Under the pieces are notes generated by a model, which saw only the letters and a list, made by a program, of their open reading frames with translations, had not been told where the DNA came from and did not search any database. Positions 2,207 to 8,803 of a stretch of 8,803 nt of DNA are shown here, piece after piece. The position numbers were made by a program, and so were the translations under genes. The stretch covers positions 1 to 8,803 of the forward strand of contig JAMPXR010000082.1 of assembly GCA_023701085.1 (NCBI GenBank). The letters are read 5' to 3'. The stretch's first letter is position 1; every line of letters starts with the position of its first letter. This DNA comes from Ramlibacter sp. GTDB taxonomy: Bacteria; Pseudomonadota; Gammaproteobacteria; Burkholderiales; Burkholderiaceae_C.

Positions 2207-3706
2207 TCATTCCAGCCCCTCCTCCACCAGTTCGGACGCCCGCAGCAGGGCGCGCGCCTTGGCCTCGGTTTCCTTCCATTCGAGTTCGGGCACCGAATCG
2301 GCGACCACGCCGGCCGCCGCCTGCACATAGAGCGTCTGGTCCTTGACGATCGCCGTGCGGATCGCGATCGCCACGTCCATGTCGCCCGCGTAACTGAGGT
2401 AGCCGCAGGCCCCGCCGTACAGGCCGCGCTTGCTGGGTTCGAGCTGGTCGATCAGCTCCATCGCGTGGATCTTGGGCGCGCCGGTCAGCGTTCCGGCGGG
2501 GAAAGTGGCCTTGAGCACATCGATGCTGTCCATGCCCTCGTTGAGGATGCCTTCCACATTGCTGACGATGTGCATCACGTGGCTGTAGCGCTCCACCGCG
2601 AAGGCCTCGGTGACCTTGACCGTGCCGGTCCGGGCGATGCGGCCGATGTCGTTGCGCGCCAGGTCGATCAGCATCACGTGTTCGGCGCGCTCCTTGGGGT
2701 CGCTGATCAGCTCCTGCTCCACGGCCTTGTCCGCCTCCGGGCTCGCGGCGCGCGGCCGCGTGCCCGCCAGCGGGCGGATCGTGACCTTCTGGCCCTCGGG
2801 CGTCTGTTCCTGCCGCACCAGTATCTCGGGCGAGGCGCCGACCACATGGAAATCGCCAAAGTGGTAGTAATACATGTATGGACTGGGGTTGAGCGACCTC
2901 AGCGCCCGGTACAGCGACAGCGGCGACTCCGTGTAGCGCTTCTTGATGCGCTGGCCGACCTGCACCTGCATGAAGTCCCCGGCGGCGATCAGCTCCTTGG
3001 CGCGCGCGACGGCCAGGAGGTAGTCGGCTTTCGCGAAATCGCGCTCGGCGGGAAAACTCTGGGTCGGCCGCACCACCGGCGCGCTCACCGAATATTTGAG
3101 CTGCTCGCGCAGCGCGCGCAGCCGCTTCTTGCCGCTCGCATAAGCCTCCGGCTGGGCCGGGTCCGCATACACGATGAGGTAAAGCTTGCCCGACAGGTTG
3201 TCGATGACGGCCAGTTCCTCGCAGTGCAGCAGCAGAATGTCCGGGCAGCCCAGGGTGTCGGGCGGGCAACTGGCTTCCAGCTTCTTTTCGATGTAGCGCA
3301 CCGTGTCGTAACCGAAGTAGCCGGCCAGCCCGCCGCAAAAGCGCGGCAGCCCCGGGCGCAAAGCCACCTTGAAGCGCTTCTGGTACGCCGCGATGAAATC
3401 CAGCGGGTTGCCGCGGGCGGTTTCGACGACCCGGCCCTCGTCGACCACCTCGGTGACGGCGTCCGCGCCAAAGCCGCTGCAACGCAGCAGGGTCCGCGCG
3501 GGCAGGCCGATGAAACTGTAGCGCCCGAAACGCTCGCCGCCGACGACGGATTCGAGCAGGAAGCTGTGACGGCCGCCGTCCTTCGCGTGGGCCAGTTTCA
3601 AGTACAGCGACAAGGGGGTCTCGAGATCGGCGAAGGCCTCGACGATCAAGGGGATACGGTTGTAGCCCTGCGCGGCAAGGCTTTTGAATTCGAGTTCGGT
3701 GATCAA
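2207..3706 (-). CDS. trpE: Anthranilate synthase component I
   Basis: TrpE converts chorismate and ammonia (from TrpG) to anthranilate, the committed step of tryptophan synthesis. From a TTG start it is 499 residues. The order is: feedback-inhibitor site LLES (about 50-53), then the chorismate-binding domain with GASPEILVR (290-298), PLAGTRPR (312-319), HVMLIDLARND (343-353), TFPAGTLTGAPK (401-412) and GVVADSVPELEW (466-477). The active-site elements are complete, so the enzyme should be functional and tryptophan-sensitive. The TTG at 3706-3704 is chosen because a perfect GGAGG lies 7 bases upstream and homology begins here (ITELEFKSLAAQGYNR). An in-frame ATG at 3805 would add 33 low-complexity residues with no ribosome site. 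One small deviation: VQAAAGV where VQAGAGI is usual. Confidence 0.96.
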   Translation of the reverse strand: MITELEFKSLAAQGYNRIPLIVEAFADLETPLSLYLKLAHAKDGGRHSFLLESVVGGERFGRYSFIGLPARTLLRCSGFGADAVTEVVDEGRVVETARGNPLDFIAAYQKRFKVALRPGLPRFCGGLAGYFGYDTVRYIEKKLEASCPPDTLGCPDILLLHCEELAVIDNLSGKLYLIVYADPAQPEAYASGKKRLRALREQLKYSVSAPVVRPTQSFPAERDFAKADYLLAVARAKELIAAGDFMQVQVGQRIKKRYTESPLSLYRALRSLNPSPYMYYYHFGDFHVVGASPEILVRQEQTPEGQKVTIRPLAGTRPRAASPEADKAVEQELISDPKERAEHVMLIDLARNDIGRIARTGTVKVTEAFAVERYSHVMHIVSNVEGILNEGMDSIDVLKATFPAGTLTGAPKIHAMELIDQLEPSKRGLYGGACGYLSYAGDMDVAIAIRTAIVKDQTLYVQAAAGVVADSVPELEWKETEAKARALLRASELVEEGLE

Positions 3707-3713
3707 GGGTGAG

Positions 3714-3718
3714 CCTCC
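3714..3718 (-). promoter_or_regulatory. Ribosome binding site deciding the trpE TTG start
   Basis: On the minus strand this reads GGAGG, followed by CTCACCC (7 bases) and TTG. It is the best Shine-Dalgarno near the 5' end of trpE and fixes the rare TTG codon as the start. Flanking GAGC and GCTC can form a 4-base stem that would hold part of the site in a loop, which is too weak to interpret. Confidence 0.8.
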
Positions 3719-3801
3719 ACAAGCTCCGCGGCGCGGGGGCCGCTTTCGATTCGAGATGATCCCCTCGAGCGCCGGTGCAGCCGGGCACTTTGGGGCGCGG
3801 G

Positions 3802-3859
3802 GCACGGGCTGCCCCGTGCTTCAGGAACGCACCGACTGAGGCCTGCGCCAGGGCCAGGC
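3802..3859 (-). promoter_or_regulatory. Candidate trp attenuator hairpins
   Basis: Two RNA hairpins can be drawn on the trpE strand. The first (3859-3841) pairs GCCTG with CAGGC and encloses both leader Trp codons. The second (3819-3802) is GCACGGG-GCAG-CCCGTGC, a perfect 7-base stem starting one base after the leader stop codon. An alternative pairing of GTGC (3832-3829) with the GCAC of the second stem is possible but only 4 bases. No run of U follows the second stem, so ordinary intrinsic termination is doubtful; Rho-dependent or translational control could apply instead. The layout is what a trp leader would show; the mechanism is inferred. Confidence 0.4.
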
Positions 3860-4048: not shown

Positions 4049-4633
4049 ATGAGCTTCCCCAAACGCTGGCTGCTCGCGGCGGCCACCCTCCTGCTGTCGT
4101 GCGCCGCATCCGCCCAAATGACCGTGTCGGGCGTCAAGTTCGAGGACGCGGCCGAGGTGCGCGGCACGAAACTGCAACTCAACGGCGCGGGCACCCGCTA
4201 CAAAGCGATCTTCAAGGTCTATGTGGCCGGGCTGTACCTGCCCAGGAAGGCCGGCAGCACCGAAGAGGTGCTGGCCATGGTCGGCCCCAAGCGTTTGAAC
4301 ATCACGATGCTGCGCGAAATCGATTCGGCCGAGCTGGGCAAGCTGTTCTCGCGCGGCATCGAGGACAACATGGAAAAAGCGGCCTTCTCCAAGCTGATTC
4401 CCGGTGTCATGCGCATGAGCCAGGTCTTTTCCGACCACAAGAAACTCAATACCGGCGACACCTTCTCGCTGGAGTGGGTGCCCGGCACCGGCACCGTCCT
4501 GACCGTCAAGGGGGCAGTGCAAGGCGAGCCCTTCAAGGAGCCTGAATTCTTCAATGCGCTGCTGCGCATCTGGCTAGGGCCGAACCCCGCCGACTGGAAG
4601 CTCAAGGAGGCGCTGCTCGGCAAGGCGGGCTAA
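4049..4633 (+). CDS. Secreted chalcone isomerase-like protein
   Basis: A 194-residue exported protein of the bacterial chalcone isomerase-like family. Known members of the fold include plant chalcone isomerases and fatty-acid-binding relatives, but the bacterial role is not established. A signal peptide is clear: MSFPKR, a hydrophobic core to about residue 17, and an ASA-Q cleavage site at 22/23, so the mature protein is likely periplasmic. LLSC at 15-18 resembles a lipobox, but the ASA-Q site fits better. Family segments are NGAGTRYKAIFKVYVAGLYL (45-64) and the C-terminal LLRIWLGPNPADWKLKEALL (171-190). A strong Shine-Dalgarno AGGAG (4038-4042) lies 6 bases before the ATG. The TAA overlaps the gph TAG on the other strand, with no terminator between them. 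Confidence 0.85.
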   Translation: MSFPKRWLLAAATLLLSCAASAQMTVSGVKFEDAAEVRGTKLQLNGAGTRYKAIFKVYVAGLYLPRKAGSTEEVLAMVGPKRLNITMLREIDSAELGKLFSRGIEDNMEKAAFSKLIPGVMRMSQVFSDHKKLNTGDTFSLEWVPGTGTVLTVKGAVQGEPFKEPEFFNALLRIWLGPNPADWKLKEALLGKAG

Positions 4634-5289
4634 AGCCAGCGCGACACCTCGGCCAGCGAATCCAGGTAGCCGTCGGCGGGCACCGAGCGGATCGGCTCGC
4701 CATGGTTGTAGCCATAGCTGACCAGCAGCACGGGGCAGCCGGCGGCGCGCGCCGCGCCCGCGTCGTTGCTCGAATCGCCGATCACCAGCGTGCGCTGCGG
4801 GGCGCAGCCCAGGGCCTCGCAGGTCTTTCGCAGGGGCAGCGGATCAGGCTTTTGCCGCTCGAAAGCATCCCCGCCGAACACCACCTGGAAGAATTCAGCC
4901 AGTCCTTTGGCCTGCAGCAGCGGCCGGGCAAAAGCGCTCGGCTTGTTGGTCAGGCAGGCCAGCTTCAGGCCGGCCGCCTGCAAGCGGCGCAGGCCCTCGG
5001 CCACGCCCGGGTAGACCGTCGCGTGTTCGCCGTTGATCGCCAGATAGTGCTGCTGGTAGGAACGCCATGCCTGCTCGTAAAGACCGGGCGGCGCGCCCAC
5101 ATGCGCGAGCACCGATCGGATCAGGTGCGGCGAGCCCTTGCCCACCATCCGTTCGATGATGGACCGCTCGATCCGCGGCAGCGACAGTTCGTCCAGCACG
5201 CGATGGAGGACCACGACAAAGTCCCCCAGCGTATCGACCATCGTGCCATCGAGGTCGATGATCGCTGCCTGCAAATCGGTGGGGAGCAT
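4630..5289 (-). CDS. gph: Phosphoglycolate phosphatase (HAD superfamily)
   Basis: Gph dephosphorylates 2-phosphoglycolate, a by-product of DNA repair and oxygenase side reactions, to glycolate. The 219-residue protein has all HAD motifs: motif I DLDGTMVDT with nucleophile Asp12 and acid/base Asp14, motif II Thr114 in LTNKPS, motif III Lys147 in RQKPDP, and motif IV GDSSNDAGAA with Asp172 and Asp176. An alpha-helical cap lies between about 20 and 90. No strong Shine-Dalgarno precedes the ATG. The 122-base gap to the KGG gene shows no clear promoter or terminator. Related HAD phosphatases cannot be excluded, but DLDGTMVDT and proximity to trpE support Gph. In many proteobacteria gph directly precedes trpE; here an inverted gene intervenes. 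Confidence 0.88.
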   Translation of the reverse strand: MLPTDLQAAIIDLDGTMVDTLGDFVVVLHRVLDELSLPRIERSIIERMVGKGSPHLIRSVLAHVGAPPGLYEQAWRSYQQHYLAINGEHATVYPGVAEGLRRLQAAGLKLACLTNKPSAFARPLLQAKGLAEFFQVVFGGDAFERQKPDPLPLRKTCEALGCAPQRTLVIGDSSNDAGAARAAGCPVLLVSYGYNHGEPIRSVPADGYLDSLAEVSRWL

Positions 5290-5411: not shown

Positions 5412-5825
5412 TCAGCGCTGGCCGTCCCCGCCGCCCTGATCGACGTCGTCATCCTGCGCGCCGCCCCGAGGCGCACCGCGGCTGGCCTGGCCGCCCTTGC
5501 GGCCCGCTTCACGGGCTTCTTCGGAGTCGAACTCGTGGGCCGTGCCCTTTTCGTGACTGGCCTGCCCGCCCTTGCGGCCGGCCTGGCGCGCTTCCTCGGA
5601 ATCGAATTCGTGCGCGGTTCCCTTTTCGTGCGCGGCCTGGCCGCCCTTGCTGCCGGCCTCGCGGGCCTCCTGCGAGGTGAATTCGTGGGCGGTCCCCTTC
5701 TGGTGGGCCGCCTTGCCGCCTTCGCTGGCGATTTCGCGCTGGCGCGCCGGGTCCATCGAAGCAAACCCGCGCCTGGAGGCGCCGCCCTGGCCCTGCTGGC
5801 CCTTGCCCTGGATGTTCGATGCCAT
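5412..5825 (-). CDS. Stress-type KGG tandem-repeat protein
   Basis: A 137-residue, very hydrophilic protein of the KGG-repeat (YciG/Con-10-like) general stress family, whose biochemical role is unknown. Three full 25-residue units at 34-58, 59-83 and 84-108, plus a short fourth at 109-115, each carry (K/E)GG(Q/K)A(A/S) followed by H(E/Q)KGTAHEF and (D/T)S(E/Q)EAR(E/Q)AG. The N-terminus is Gly/Gln-rich (MASNIQGKGQQGQGG) and the C-terminus acidic (QDDDVDQGGGDGQR). It has no signal peptide or membrane segment and is probably intrinsically disordered. A good Shine-Dalgarno GGGAG lies 6 bases before the ATG, in the context GGGAGATCGGCATG. The mini-protein gene upstream of the catalase homologue has nearly the same context (GGGAGATCGACATG). 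It lies 161 bases downstream of the catalase gene on the same strand, which suggests a shared stress response. Confidence 0.85.
   Translation of the reverse strand: MASNIQGKGQQGQGGASRRGFASMDPARQREIASEGGKAAHQKGTAHEFTSQEAREAGSKGGQAAHEKGTAHEFDSEEARQAGRKGGQASHEKGTAHEFDSEEAREAGRKGGQASRGAPRGGAQDDDVDQGGGDGQR
5481..5726 (-). repeat. 75-base in-frame tandem repeats inside the KGG gene
   Basis: Three 75-base units (5726-5652, 5651-5577, 5576-5502) and a partial fourth (5501-5481) encode the KGG units. On the plus strand the marker CCCTTGC recurs at 5494, 5569 and 5644, exactly 75 apart, with a degenerate copy at 5719. The period is a multiple of three, so unit gain or loss would keep the frame. Confidence 0.9.
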
Positions 5826-5986: not shown

Positions 5987-8146
5987 TCAGGCGGGGATCG
6001 CGTCGATGTTGGGCCGCGTCCAGTGGTGGTGCCGGGCCATGGCGGCGATGAAGTCCTGCGCCAGCTGCGCGCGTCCCGGCGCATCGTTCCTGCCAATCAG
6101 CACGCCGGCCGCGCCCTGCCCACCCTCGTCCGCGCCCAAGCCGAGCGTGCGCAGCAAGCGGGCCCCCTCGCCGACGACGCACAGCGTCTTGCCGTGCTTG
6201 TACGCCTCCAGCACGTAGTGCACGGCCTCGCCGTCGCGCGCCAATGTCTCGGCGCTGGCCGCGCCGCCGGGCACCAGCACCGCGTCGAACAGCACCGACG
6301 GCATGGTGGCGAAGGTGTGATCCACCGCCAGCTGCTGGCCCGACGAGGTCGCGACGAACCCCAGGCGGGCCCCCAGGATTCGGCTGCTGGCCCCCGCGTC
6401 CTGCAGGGCCTGCTGGATCACCCGCAGCGCGCCCACTTCCACGCCGCTGGCCACCAGCACCGCGACCCTGCGGGTGACGATGCCGCTGTCGCCGCCTTCC
6501 ATGCTCAGGGCGGGCGAGGACTCCAGCGGCGGGCTGGCCCGCACGTCGCGAAAACCGGCGCGGCCGGCCGCCGCCTTCGGGTCGGGCACCGCGATGCCCA
6601 GCGGCTCGGCCACTTTGCGGGCAAGTTTGGGGTCCACGTGCGACAGGTTGTCCACCACCCTTTGACGCACCGCCGCGGCTTCCACCCGGGACAGCTCGAA
6701 CTGGAACGCGGCCACGATGTGCTCGCGTTCGGCCGGGCCCTGGCTGTTCCAGAACAGCGTCGCCTGGCTGAAATGGTCGTCGAAGCCCGGGCTGCGGCGC
6801 CGGATCTTCGGCGCCTCGAGCGCCTCCGGATAACTCTGAAAGCCCTGGTGGCCGCCGTCGACGCGGAACTCGGAGCCGCTGGCGAGCGAATTGGGCTCGT
6901 AGGCGACCTGCCCCTTGTTGACCAGCATCCGGTGCGCGCCGTCGCGCTCGAAATTGTGGAAGGGGCACAGCCCGCGGTTGATGGGCAACTCGTGAAAATT
7001 CGGCCCCCCGAGCCGCCACGACTGCGAGTCGGTGTAGGAAGCCAGACGCCCCTGCAGCAGCGGGTCGTTGCTGAAGTCGATGCCGGGCACGATGTGACCG
7101 GGGTGGAACGCCACCTGTTCGGTTTCGGCGAAGAAATTGTCGGGATTGCGGTTCAGGACCAACCTGCCCACGATGAGCACCGGGACGATTTCTTCGGGAA
7201 TCAGCTTGGTCGCATCCAGCAGGTCGAAGCCCAGGCCGTCGGCCTTGCCTTCCTCGATCAGCTGCAGGCCGAGCTCCCACTCGGGAAAGCTGCCGGCGGC
7301 CAGCGCCTCCCACAGGTCGCGCCGCAGGAAGTCGGGGTCCTTGCCGGCGATCTTCTGCGCTTCATCCCAGACCAGCGCGTGCTTGCCCAGGCGCGGCTTC
7401 CAGTGGAACTTGGCGAAGTGCGCCACCCCTTTGGCGTTGATCAGGCGAAAGGTATGGACGCCGAACCCCTCCATCATCCGGTAGCTGCGGGGAAGCGCCC
7501 GGTCCGACATCAGCCACATCAGCATGTGCGTGGTCTCGGGCATCAGCGACGCGAAGTCCCAGAAACTGTCGTGCGCGGTGGACGCCTGCGGCATGCCGTG
7601 GTGCGGCTCCGGCTTCATCGCGTGGACCAGGTCCGGGTACTTGATCGCATCCTGGATGAAAAATACGGGCATGTTCGCGCCCACCAGGTCGTAGTTGCCT
7701 TCGCGCGTGTAGAACTTGACGGCGAAGCCGCGCAGGTCGCGCACCGAGTCGGCGGCGCCGCGCGCGCCGGTCGCGCCGGAAAAGCGCACGAACACCGGGG
7801 TGCGGCTGCCGGCCTCCTGCAGGAAGTCGGCCCGTGTGTACTCGCCCAGCGAACGCGTCAGCTCGAAATAACCGTGCGCCGCAGCGCCCTGGGCGAACAC
7901 GACGCGCTCGGCAATGCGCTCACGGTCGAAGTGCGCGATTTTCTCGCGCAGGATGAAGTCTTCCAGCAGCGATGGGCCGCGCACGCCGGCCCGCAGCGAG
8001 TTGTGGTTGTCCGGGATCACCACGCCATGGCGCGTGGTGAGGAGGTTTTCGGGCGCCTGGCTGAACGCGTCCAGTTGCTTCTGCTTGGCCGCGGCGCTGT
8101 CGCCCGCCTTCGACTTGCGCTGCGCATCCTGCTTGGACTGTGGCAT
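5987..8146 (-). CDS. KatE/HPII-family large catalase homologue with substituted distal catalytic residues
   Basis: A 719-residue haem protein colinear with E. coli HPII (KatE). The catalase core spans about 25-530, followed by a C-terminal class I amidotransferase/DJ-1-like flavodoxin fold (about 558-700). Using HPII numbering (offset 44), the proximal side is conserved: haem ligand Tyr371 in RLASYTDSQ, Arg367, and His348 in FHPGH, which in HPII bonds covalently to that Tyr. Arg81 and Ser123 are also present. The distal side is not: essential His128 of HPII is Phe84 (VVFAQG for VVHARG), Asn201 is Ala157 (VGANMP for VGNNTP), Val169 is Ala125 and Phe214 is Tyr170. The frame is open and the rest well conserved, so this is not simple decay. 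It should bind haem, but normal catalase activity is unlikely. Shine-Dalgarno AGGAG lies 6 bases before the ATG. Confidence 0.92.
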
Positions 8147-8606: not shown

Positions 8607-8803
8607 ATGCACAACCGAATGCCCAGCCGGCGGCGACGCGGCGAACCGCGGGATGGGAGCCCGGCCGGCCGCGGCGACACGGTACCGGTCCAAGGCGATC
8701 GGGAGCGGGCGCCGCGCCTGCCGCACGAACGCGACGAGTCCGCCGACAGCCAGGCGGCGAGCGAGCCGTCCGGGCCACGGATGGCGCGCGCGGCCCGGGA
8801 AGA
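8607..8803 (+). CDS. Basic, low-complexity hypothetical protein with LPHERDES motif (runs off right edge)
   Basis: The first 65 residues of an open frame that continues past the window. It begins MHNRMPSRRRRGEPRDG, is rich in Arg, Pro, Gly, Asp and Glu, and contains RLPHERDESADSQ at 37-49. I recall LPHERDES as a recurring motif in short uncharacterised Burkholderiales proteins, so this is probably real coding sequence, but no function is known. There is no signal peptide or membrane segment in the visible part. AAGG lies 6 bases before the ATG; Met5 is an alternative start without a better site. It is divergent from the mini-protein/catalase unit and preceded by one arm of the CGTCCTACCGCC inverted repeat. 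Confidence 0.6.
   Translation, partial: MHNRMPSRRRRGEPRDGSPAGRGDTVPVQGDRERAPRLPHERDESADSQAASEPSGPRMARAARE

Follow-up and report, generated by a model that had tools for sequence, protein, structure and literature searches.

Haem catalases depend, in the textbook account, on a distal histidine as their catalytic residue. This histidine is kept in catalase-related allene oxide synthase, which combines the catalase fold and a tyrosinate haem with an altered chemistry. For the large-subunit catalases closest to the protein described here, the following has been reported. His128, Asn201 and Tyr415 were named as predicted catalytic residues of Escherichia coli KatE (HPII) (PMC8699984). The H128N variant of HPII was called inactive, the formation of haem d and of the proximal His-Tyr bond of HPII was found to need catalase activity, and CAT-1 is known to carry a Cys-Tyr bond (PMC9687031). 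The C-terminal domain of fungal large catalases has an independent chaperone activity, for which the last 17 residues are needed in CAT-3 (PMC9137513, PMC10135305). Large catalases can also have side activities, such as the phenol oxidase activity of CATPO (PMC6173053). The channel residues of CATPO are His82, Val123, Asp135, Phe160, Phe161, Phe168 and Tyr369, with Val123 at the narrowest point (PMC10836395). Further, HPII subunits have been crystallized with Hfq hexamers bound to them, a binding that leaves catalase activity unaffected (PMC3819363). No report of a natural catalase lineage without the distal histidine was found in the open-access literature searched.

We analyzed a stretch of 8,803 nucleotides from Ramlibacter sp. 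(hereafter the window), which is a contig of a draft genome (3.1 Mb in 543 contigs, 80.85% complete). It encodes a homologue of HPII in which, according to an earlier note on this DNA, both distal catalytic residues are replaced.

Architecture and haem pocket of the window protein

The open reading frame at 5987-8146 of the minus strand runs from ATG to a stop codon with zero internal stops. The gene and its domains are as follows.

5987..8146, minus strand: HPII-type large-subunit catalase homologue of 719 aa, without distal His and Asn (open reading frame, Pfam, HPII alignment)
6884..8038, minus strand: catalase domain PF00199, residues 37-421 (Pfam)
6605..6787, minus strand: Catalase-rel domain PF06628, residues 454-514 (Pfam, above cut-off)
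5990..6478, minus strand: Hsp31/DJ-1-like C-terminal domain, residues 557-719, PF18011 and PF01965 (Pfam)

The Pfam Catalase profile scored 561.1 bits against a cut-off of 25, which places the protein in the haem catalase superfamily (PF00199). Catalase_C (PF18011) and DJ-1_PfpI (PF01965) were both above cut-off, giving it the C-terminal domain of the clade 2 large-subunit (HPII) type. It also has the proximal Tyr and Arg set of that type (Tyr371, Arg367, Arg81, Arg121 and Arg378), whose haem-holding and proximal roles we take from HPII, and a His (His348) at HPII position 392, the position of the neighbouring His that forms the bond with the proximal Tyr in HPII. The residues of a functional catalase (EC 1.11.1.6) are absent at two sites, with Phe84 in place of the distal His and Ala157 in place of the distal Asn. 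The reading frame is intact and omega is 0.075 across 28 distal-less orthologues, so the gene shows neither the broken frame nor the neutral evolution of a pseudogene. For the NCBIfam catalase HPII equivalog NF008422 the window protein scored 1018.9 bits (cut-off 1102). A canonical paralogue (1028.7) and two orthologues with both distal residues (1096.1 and 1093.8) also fell below the cut-off, which was therefore useless as a discriminator. One structure prediction was poor (mean pLDDT 49.7) and was left unused.

The alignment with E. coli HPII spanned residues 7-719 (802-805 bits) with an offset of 44 through the catalase domain. It assigned the following codons.

7895..7897, minus strand: codon 84, TTC, Phe replacing the distal His (HPII His128; HPII alignment, codon read)
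7676..7678, minus strand: codon 157, GCG, Ala replacing the distal Asn (HPII Asn201; HPII alignment, codon read)
7772..7774, minus strand: codon 125, GCG, Ala replacing the main-channel Val (HPII Val169; HPII alignment, codon read)
7637..7639, minus strand: codon 170, TAC, Tyr replacing a pocket Phe (HPII Phe214; HPII alignment, codon read)
7034..7036, minus strand: Tyr371, proximal haem ligand (HPII Tyr415), unchanged (77/77 distal-less rows)
7046..7048, minus strand: Arg367 (HPII Arg411), unchanged (77/77 distal-less rows)
7904..7906, minus strand: Arg81 (HPII Arg125), unchanged (77/77 distal-less rows)
7778..7780, minus strand: Ser123 (HPII Ser167), kept despite the loss of the distal His (76/77 distal-less rows)
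7103..7105, minus strand: His348 (HPII His392; His in 52/77 and Asn in 25/77 distal-less rows)

The window protein resembles HPII (PDB 1gge, 1ggj) in its full-length match, domain order, haem-holding residues and His348 at the position of His392. It differs in having Phe for His128, Ala for Asn201, Ala for Val169, Tyr for Phe214 and Trp for Ser421. The best PDB match, 1ggj, is an HPII variant that itself has Ala at 201. At HPII positions 418 and 421 the window protein has Ser374 and Trp377, where Thr374 and Ser377 are the usual letters. The two distal replacements read in the earlier note were confirmed by this alignment and by the codons TTC and GCG, and the alignment also upheld the changes of Val to Ala125 and Phe to Tyr170. 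Tyr371, Arg367, His348, Arg81, Ser123 and the C-terminal domain are kept in the window protein, as had been stated. The description of the proximal side as conserved held for Tyr371 and Arg367 but not for Ser370, Thr374 and Ser377 (HPII 414, 418 and 421) or for His348, which vary among distal-less members.

The CATPO channel list maps to positions 84, 125, 137, 162, 163, 170 and 371 by an offset of 2, which we derived from the catalase motif. CATPO of Scytalidium thermophilum is also a large catalase but keeps the distal His, whereas the window protein differs from it at 84, 125 and 170.

The draft state of the source genome, in 543 contigs, would allow a sequencing, assembly or pseudogene artefact behind the missing residues. 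Against this, a homologue of 95% identity from another source (P0002) shares both Phe84 and Ala157, and His84 is absent from the Ramlibacter isolates R. rhizophilus (Phe/Ala), R. aurantiacus (Phe84) and R. albus (Phe84). The frame is intact and under purifying selection. The orthologue L003 (84% identical) has Tyr84 and Gly157. Because P0002 has the same residues, and because 39 of the best 120 homologues and the three isolates are without His84, we rejected sequencing error and chance. An artefact, which we regard as having almost no probability, was dropped on these independent records.

Distribution and recurrence of distal-less homologues

Homologues were collected with two queries, taking the best 120 of 7997 scored for each, which yields a sample centred on the queries and not a census. 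Among the best 120 of 7997, residue 84 was His in 81, Tyr in 20, Asn in 16, Phe in two and Cys in one, and residue 157 was Asn in 89, Ser in 14, Gly in 11 and Ala in six. Among these best 120 listed, the pair Phe84/Ala157 occurred in the window protein (P0001) and P0002 only. The second search, with an Asn/Asn protein of Comamonadaceae as query, returned 104 His/Asn proteins and 14 without His in its best 120, two of the latter from Polaromonas. Loci in genomes of the same genus added Gly and Trp at position 84. The 80 loci with named records comprised 73 His/Asn, two Phe/Ser, two Asn/Asn, one Phe/Ala, one Tyr/Gly and one His/Ala. Distal-less homologues do bear the name catalase in public sources, in line with the warning of the earlier note about an automatic label.

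The 306 combined rows included near-identical ones; removal of 37 at 98% identity left 269 non-redundant rows. His84 was missing from 77 of these (hereafter distal-less rows), with Tyr in 32, Asn in 30, Phe in eight, Gly in four, and Cys, Ser and Trp in one each. Asn157 was missing too in 58 of the 77. After thinning at 90% identity, 60 of 170 rows were without His84. The pair Phe84/Ala157 was present in three of the 269 rows, of which two are nearly identical to each other and the third is that of R. rhizophilus, and position 84 takes seven non-His letters. On these counts, the Phe84/Ala157 clade for which the earlier note had proposed to test was rejected. No charged residue, Pro or Leu occurs among the replacements at 84, which implies that the pocket is not free.

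Phylogenetic trees were computed with pocket columns masked, by a short LG+G4 search for 67 rows (with a long-branch warning for L057) and by FastTree for the 306 and 269 rows. Five rows were left out before the 67-row tree, namely L001 and L002, which both come from the stretch of the window itself, L009 because of an in-frame TAG, L054 because its frame is broken, and the fragment L055. In that tree 54 orthologue rows (50 from the genus, four from elsewhere) stood apart from 13 canonical paralogue rows with a support of 100, and L003 was the sister of the window protein with a support of 81. The minimum numbers of changes on the 67-row tree were 20 for residue 84, nine between His and non-His and three between Asn157 and other residues. 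On the 269-row tree they were 37, 25 and 11, and the counts of 25 and 37 were the same in the 306-row tree. Such counts alone give no direction, but loss is the natural reading because the paralogue and near-basal rows are mostly His/Asn.

Five loci (L044, L047, L050, L051 and L052) combine His84 with Ala157 and are nested among distal-less rows of the 67-row tree. In four of the five, the copy is the only catalase-domain match of its genome; it is therefore possible that His was regained in this small group. In L058 (G075:C69), the sole such row of the 306, the reverse loss was observed: the distal His84 is kept and the proximal Tyr371 is replaced by Ser. Six Comamonadaceae draft loci (L080-L085) retain His and Asn in an altered pocket, with Ala125 and Asn348 in 6/6 and Tyr162 in 5/6.

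Arg81, Arg121, Phe347, Arg367, Tyr371 and Arg378 were invariant in all 77 distal-less rows, and Ser123, Asp137 and Gln375 were present in 76, 76 and 75 of them, respectively. The counts for a 50-row clade and the whole-gene omega estimates below leave out L053, L056, L057, L058 and the paralogues. In 252 columns, a single letter is shared by all of the 13 paralogues and the 17 orthologues with His/Asn. Of these columns, 150 were unchanged in that clade, and position 84 changed most (19 steps versus a mean of 1.6). Since position 84 partly defines the groups, the remaining columns are the cleaner test. Position 84 apart, 308 columns had a conservation of 97% or more among the His/Asn rows; of these, the distal-less rows lost 157 most, followed by 377, 170, 74, 370 and 158. 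The pocket or nearby positions that change together are 84, 125, 157, 158, 162, 170, 370 and 374. The varying positions 84, 125, 162 and 170 correspond to channel or cavity residues of CATPO, and 137, 163 and 371 of the same list hardly vary.

New His residues were observed at position 384 in 18 of the 77 distal-less rows, with no strict link to residue 84, and at position 158 in four (P0123, P0125, P0126 and P0127). Near or possibly near the pocket, they could be a compensation for the lost distal His.

Genomic context and selection

The gene lies among the following neighbours.

5412..5825, minus strand: KGG-repeat stress protein of 137 aa, PF10685, directly downstream (also beside 8/21 loci L032-L052)
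4630..5289, minus strand: phosphoglycolate phosphatase-type HAD hydrolase (Gph), conserved neighbour (profile match, synteny)
2207..3805, minus strand: TrpE, conserved neighbour marking the orthologous locus (profile match, synteny)

Further neighbours are a chalcone-isomerase-like protein, TrpG and threonine aldolase. Around 21 loci of the genus (L032-L052; with flanks of about 5 kb, or shorter ones near a contig end), Gph was found at 16, TrpE at 17, at least one of Gph, Chalcone_3 and TrpE at 19, and the KGG protein at eight. These shared neighbours indicate that copies with and without the His mostly represent one orthologous gene that has stayed at its locus. The start of a divergent small basic open reading frame (MHNRMPSRRR...; 8607-8801, plus strand) is cut by the window end, and a similar one lies in the same place in L079.

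A Catalase match was found in 57 of 60 genomes of the genus. The genome of the window (80.85% complete) had a single one and no match to the KatG peroxidase family or Mn catalase. The intact catalase for which the earlier note proposed to search was not seen in the window's own genome, which is incomplete. In the genus, a canonical KatE paralogue was found in 26 of the 28 genomes with a distal-less copy, compared with 14 of 23 with a His copy (51 genomes, Fisher p=0.014). This count does not cover G001, G019, G035 and G049 (orthologue fragmentary or broken) or G007, G017, G024, G032 and G037 (no orthologue seen). L009 was entered by the letters of its first fragment, and a paralogue fragment in G010 was taken as present. 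When the association was computed for the 43 genomes with a completeness of 90% or more, p was 0.0037, and it was 0.12 when KatG was counted as a substitute; the independent-pairs test was powerless, with too few pairs on the tree. Of the 11 genus genomes without the paralogue, nine keep His84, three of these with KatG. The two distal-less cases without it are the window's incomplete genome and G018 (L042, Tyr/Ser), which is rated 100% complete and gave no match to a further haem catalase, to KatG or to Mn catalase.

The canonical Cys-type paralogue (L059-L070 in the genus, L071 in another genus) is likewise a large catalase with the C-terminal domain and is 52-57% identical. In contrast to the window protein, it retains all three of the distal His, Asn and Val and carries Cys at 348 in 13 of 13 rows checked (12 of the genus for the distal pair), and its catalase part evolves more slowly and its C-terminal domain faster.

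Whole-gene omega was 0.057 for 17 His/Asn orthologues and 0.075 for 28 distal-less ones, which establishes purifying selection on the latter. Together with the intact frame and a locus common to most relatives examined, this supports the earlier view that the gene is not decaying. In codon models of residues 77-530 and of the C-terminal domain, omega was 0.030 and 0.103 for the canonical paralogue (12 rows), 0.040 and 0.067 for the His/Asn orthologues, and 0.063 and 0.061 for the distal-less copies. Bootstrap pairings gave a higher omega to distal-less than to His/Asn copies in 625 of 625 cases for residues 77-530 and in 230 of 625 for the C-terminal domain.

Pairwise dN/dS was computed for ten distal-less and seven His/Asn pairs of near relatives, not all of them sisters. 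The values for distal-less versus His/Asn pairs were 0.250 versus 0.146 for the whole gene, 0.194 versus 0.108 for the catalase region, 0.343 versus 0.246 for the C-terminal domain (in disagreement with the codon model) and 0.470 versus 0.268 for the last 17 residues. For two sets picked after the variation was known, they were 0.515 versus 0.049 (nine distal positions) and 0.015 versus 0 (haem-shell positions). None of 2000 random sets of nine positions matched the excess at the nine distal positions. With positions 125, 157 and 170 alone, 435 of 2000 random triples did as much and the excess over random codons was gone, so the excess leans on position 84 and its neighbours. Since the distal value of 0.515 is not above 1, these pairs gave no sign of diversifying selection at the distal positions. 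We concluded that constraint on the catalase domain is relaxed in distal-less copies and is still strong.

Possible roles of the distal-less proteins

The reading that we prefer, with a probability of roughly 40%, is that the window protein is a pseudocatalase, a tetramer anchored by haem that would lack catalase activity and would be maintained because its Hsp31-like C-terminal domain serves as a chaperone, with the protection of other proteins under stress as its likely task. Catalase activity has likely been given up by the distal-less copies, as would be expected from the inactivity of HPII H128N (PMC9687031). Haem would be retained as a structural anchor of the scaffold, peroxide removal may have been taken over by the canonical KatE paralogue, and selection would keep the C-terminal chaperone domain. 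This domain belongs to the same family as the Hsp31-derived chaperone domain of Neurospora crassa CAT-1 and CAT-3; the fungal enzymes are active catalases, and the window protein is a candidate chaperone. Haem b instead of haem d, and absence of the His348-Tyr371 bond, are predicted because both haem d and the bond need catalase activity in HPII (PMC9687031).

The seven replacement letters and at least 25 changes between His and non-His argue against one new chemistry, and so many different replacements would be a better fit to release from catalysis. Their spread, the constancy of the haem-holding residues and the way in which constraint shifts in the codon models suggest a haem-anchored scaffold in which the C-terminal domain may be what is selected. 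Several results count against the scaffold and chaperone. Asp137, a channel residue in the CATPO legend, and Ser123 are each kept in 76 of 77 rows with no apparent scaffold need, the C-terminal domain and its last 17 residues relax by pairwise counts, and the catalase domain is still strongly constrained. Further, G018, although its genome is rated 100% complete, yielded no haem or Mn catalase besides its Tyr/Ser copy, the paralogue association falls to p=0.12 with KatG and has few independent pairs, and the limited replacements at 84 suggest a pocket that is not free.

A strong rival, possible although we hold it to be somewhat unlikely, is a re-tooled pocket in which, with both distal residues gone and the channel reshaped, some other molecule would be bound or turned over at the tyrosinate haem. 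The protein would then be a peroxygenase, a peroxidase, a hydroperoxide isomerase or a ligand binder, and residue 84 would be adjusted species by species. The constancy of the haem-holding residues and of Asp137 and Ser123 (76/77 each), the joint changes at 84, 125, 157, 158, 162, 170, 370 and 374, and the restriction of position 84 to Y, N, F, G, C, S and W would suit such a pocket, and the phenol oxidase activity of CATPO is an example of a side activity of a large catalase (PMC6173053). But no single chemistry would fit seven different letters at 84 among orthologues, a distal dN/dS of 0.515 is not above 1, and the neighbours, the KGG stress protein and housekeeping genes, form no evident pathway. 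Nothing was found that favours any one of the sensor, peroxygenase and haem store proposed in the earlier note.

Alternatively, the active site might drift as a relaxed bystander where the canonical KatE is present, leaving weak residual activity or no present function and ending in slow loss of the gene. The paralogue association, the His84 of nine of the 11 genomes without paralogue (three of them with KatG) and the raised omega of distal-less copies (0.075 versus 0.057; in pairs 0.250 versus 0.146) are consistent with this, and drift behind the paralogue explains part of the pattern. As an account of the gene we nevertheless consider it improbable, given deep distal-less clades with intact frames, an omega far below 1, unchanged haem-holding residues and a His that was lost on many branches while the gene stayed. 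Non-catalytic regulation, in which the tetramer might act through protein contacts of its core by analogy with the binding of Hfq to E. coli HPII, is very unlikely; its precedent is the crystal in which Hfq hexamers sit on HPII subunits and catalase activity is unaffected (PMC3819363).

More generally, we tentatively propose, with more doubt than confidence, that the HPII-type catalases of Comamonadaceae have a second, catalase-independent function that preserves the whole haem protein after loss of the His, and that in some lineages the emptied distal pocket has turned into a new tyrosinate-haem site with a ligand or chemistry of its own. If true, nature has repeated a loss-of-catalysis experiment many times over. 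Repeated loss of the His with the haem site and the C-terminal domain kept would separate the identity of the protein from its activity. The distal-less copies are natural material with which to test a selected non-catalytic role, as chaperone or in haem, of large catalases; studies of the fungal C-terminal domain, in vitro and by E. coli survival, had raised this question. In Ramlibacter, Polaromonas and their kin, peroxide tolerance should not be read from a catalase label.
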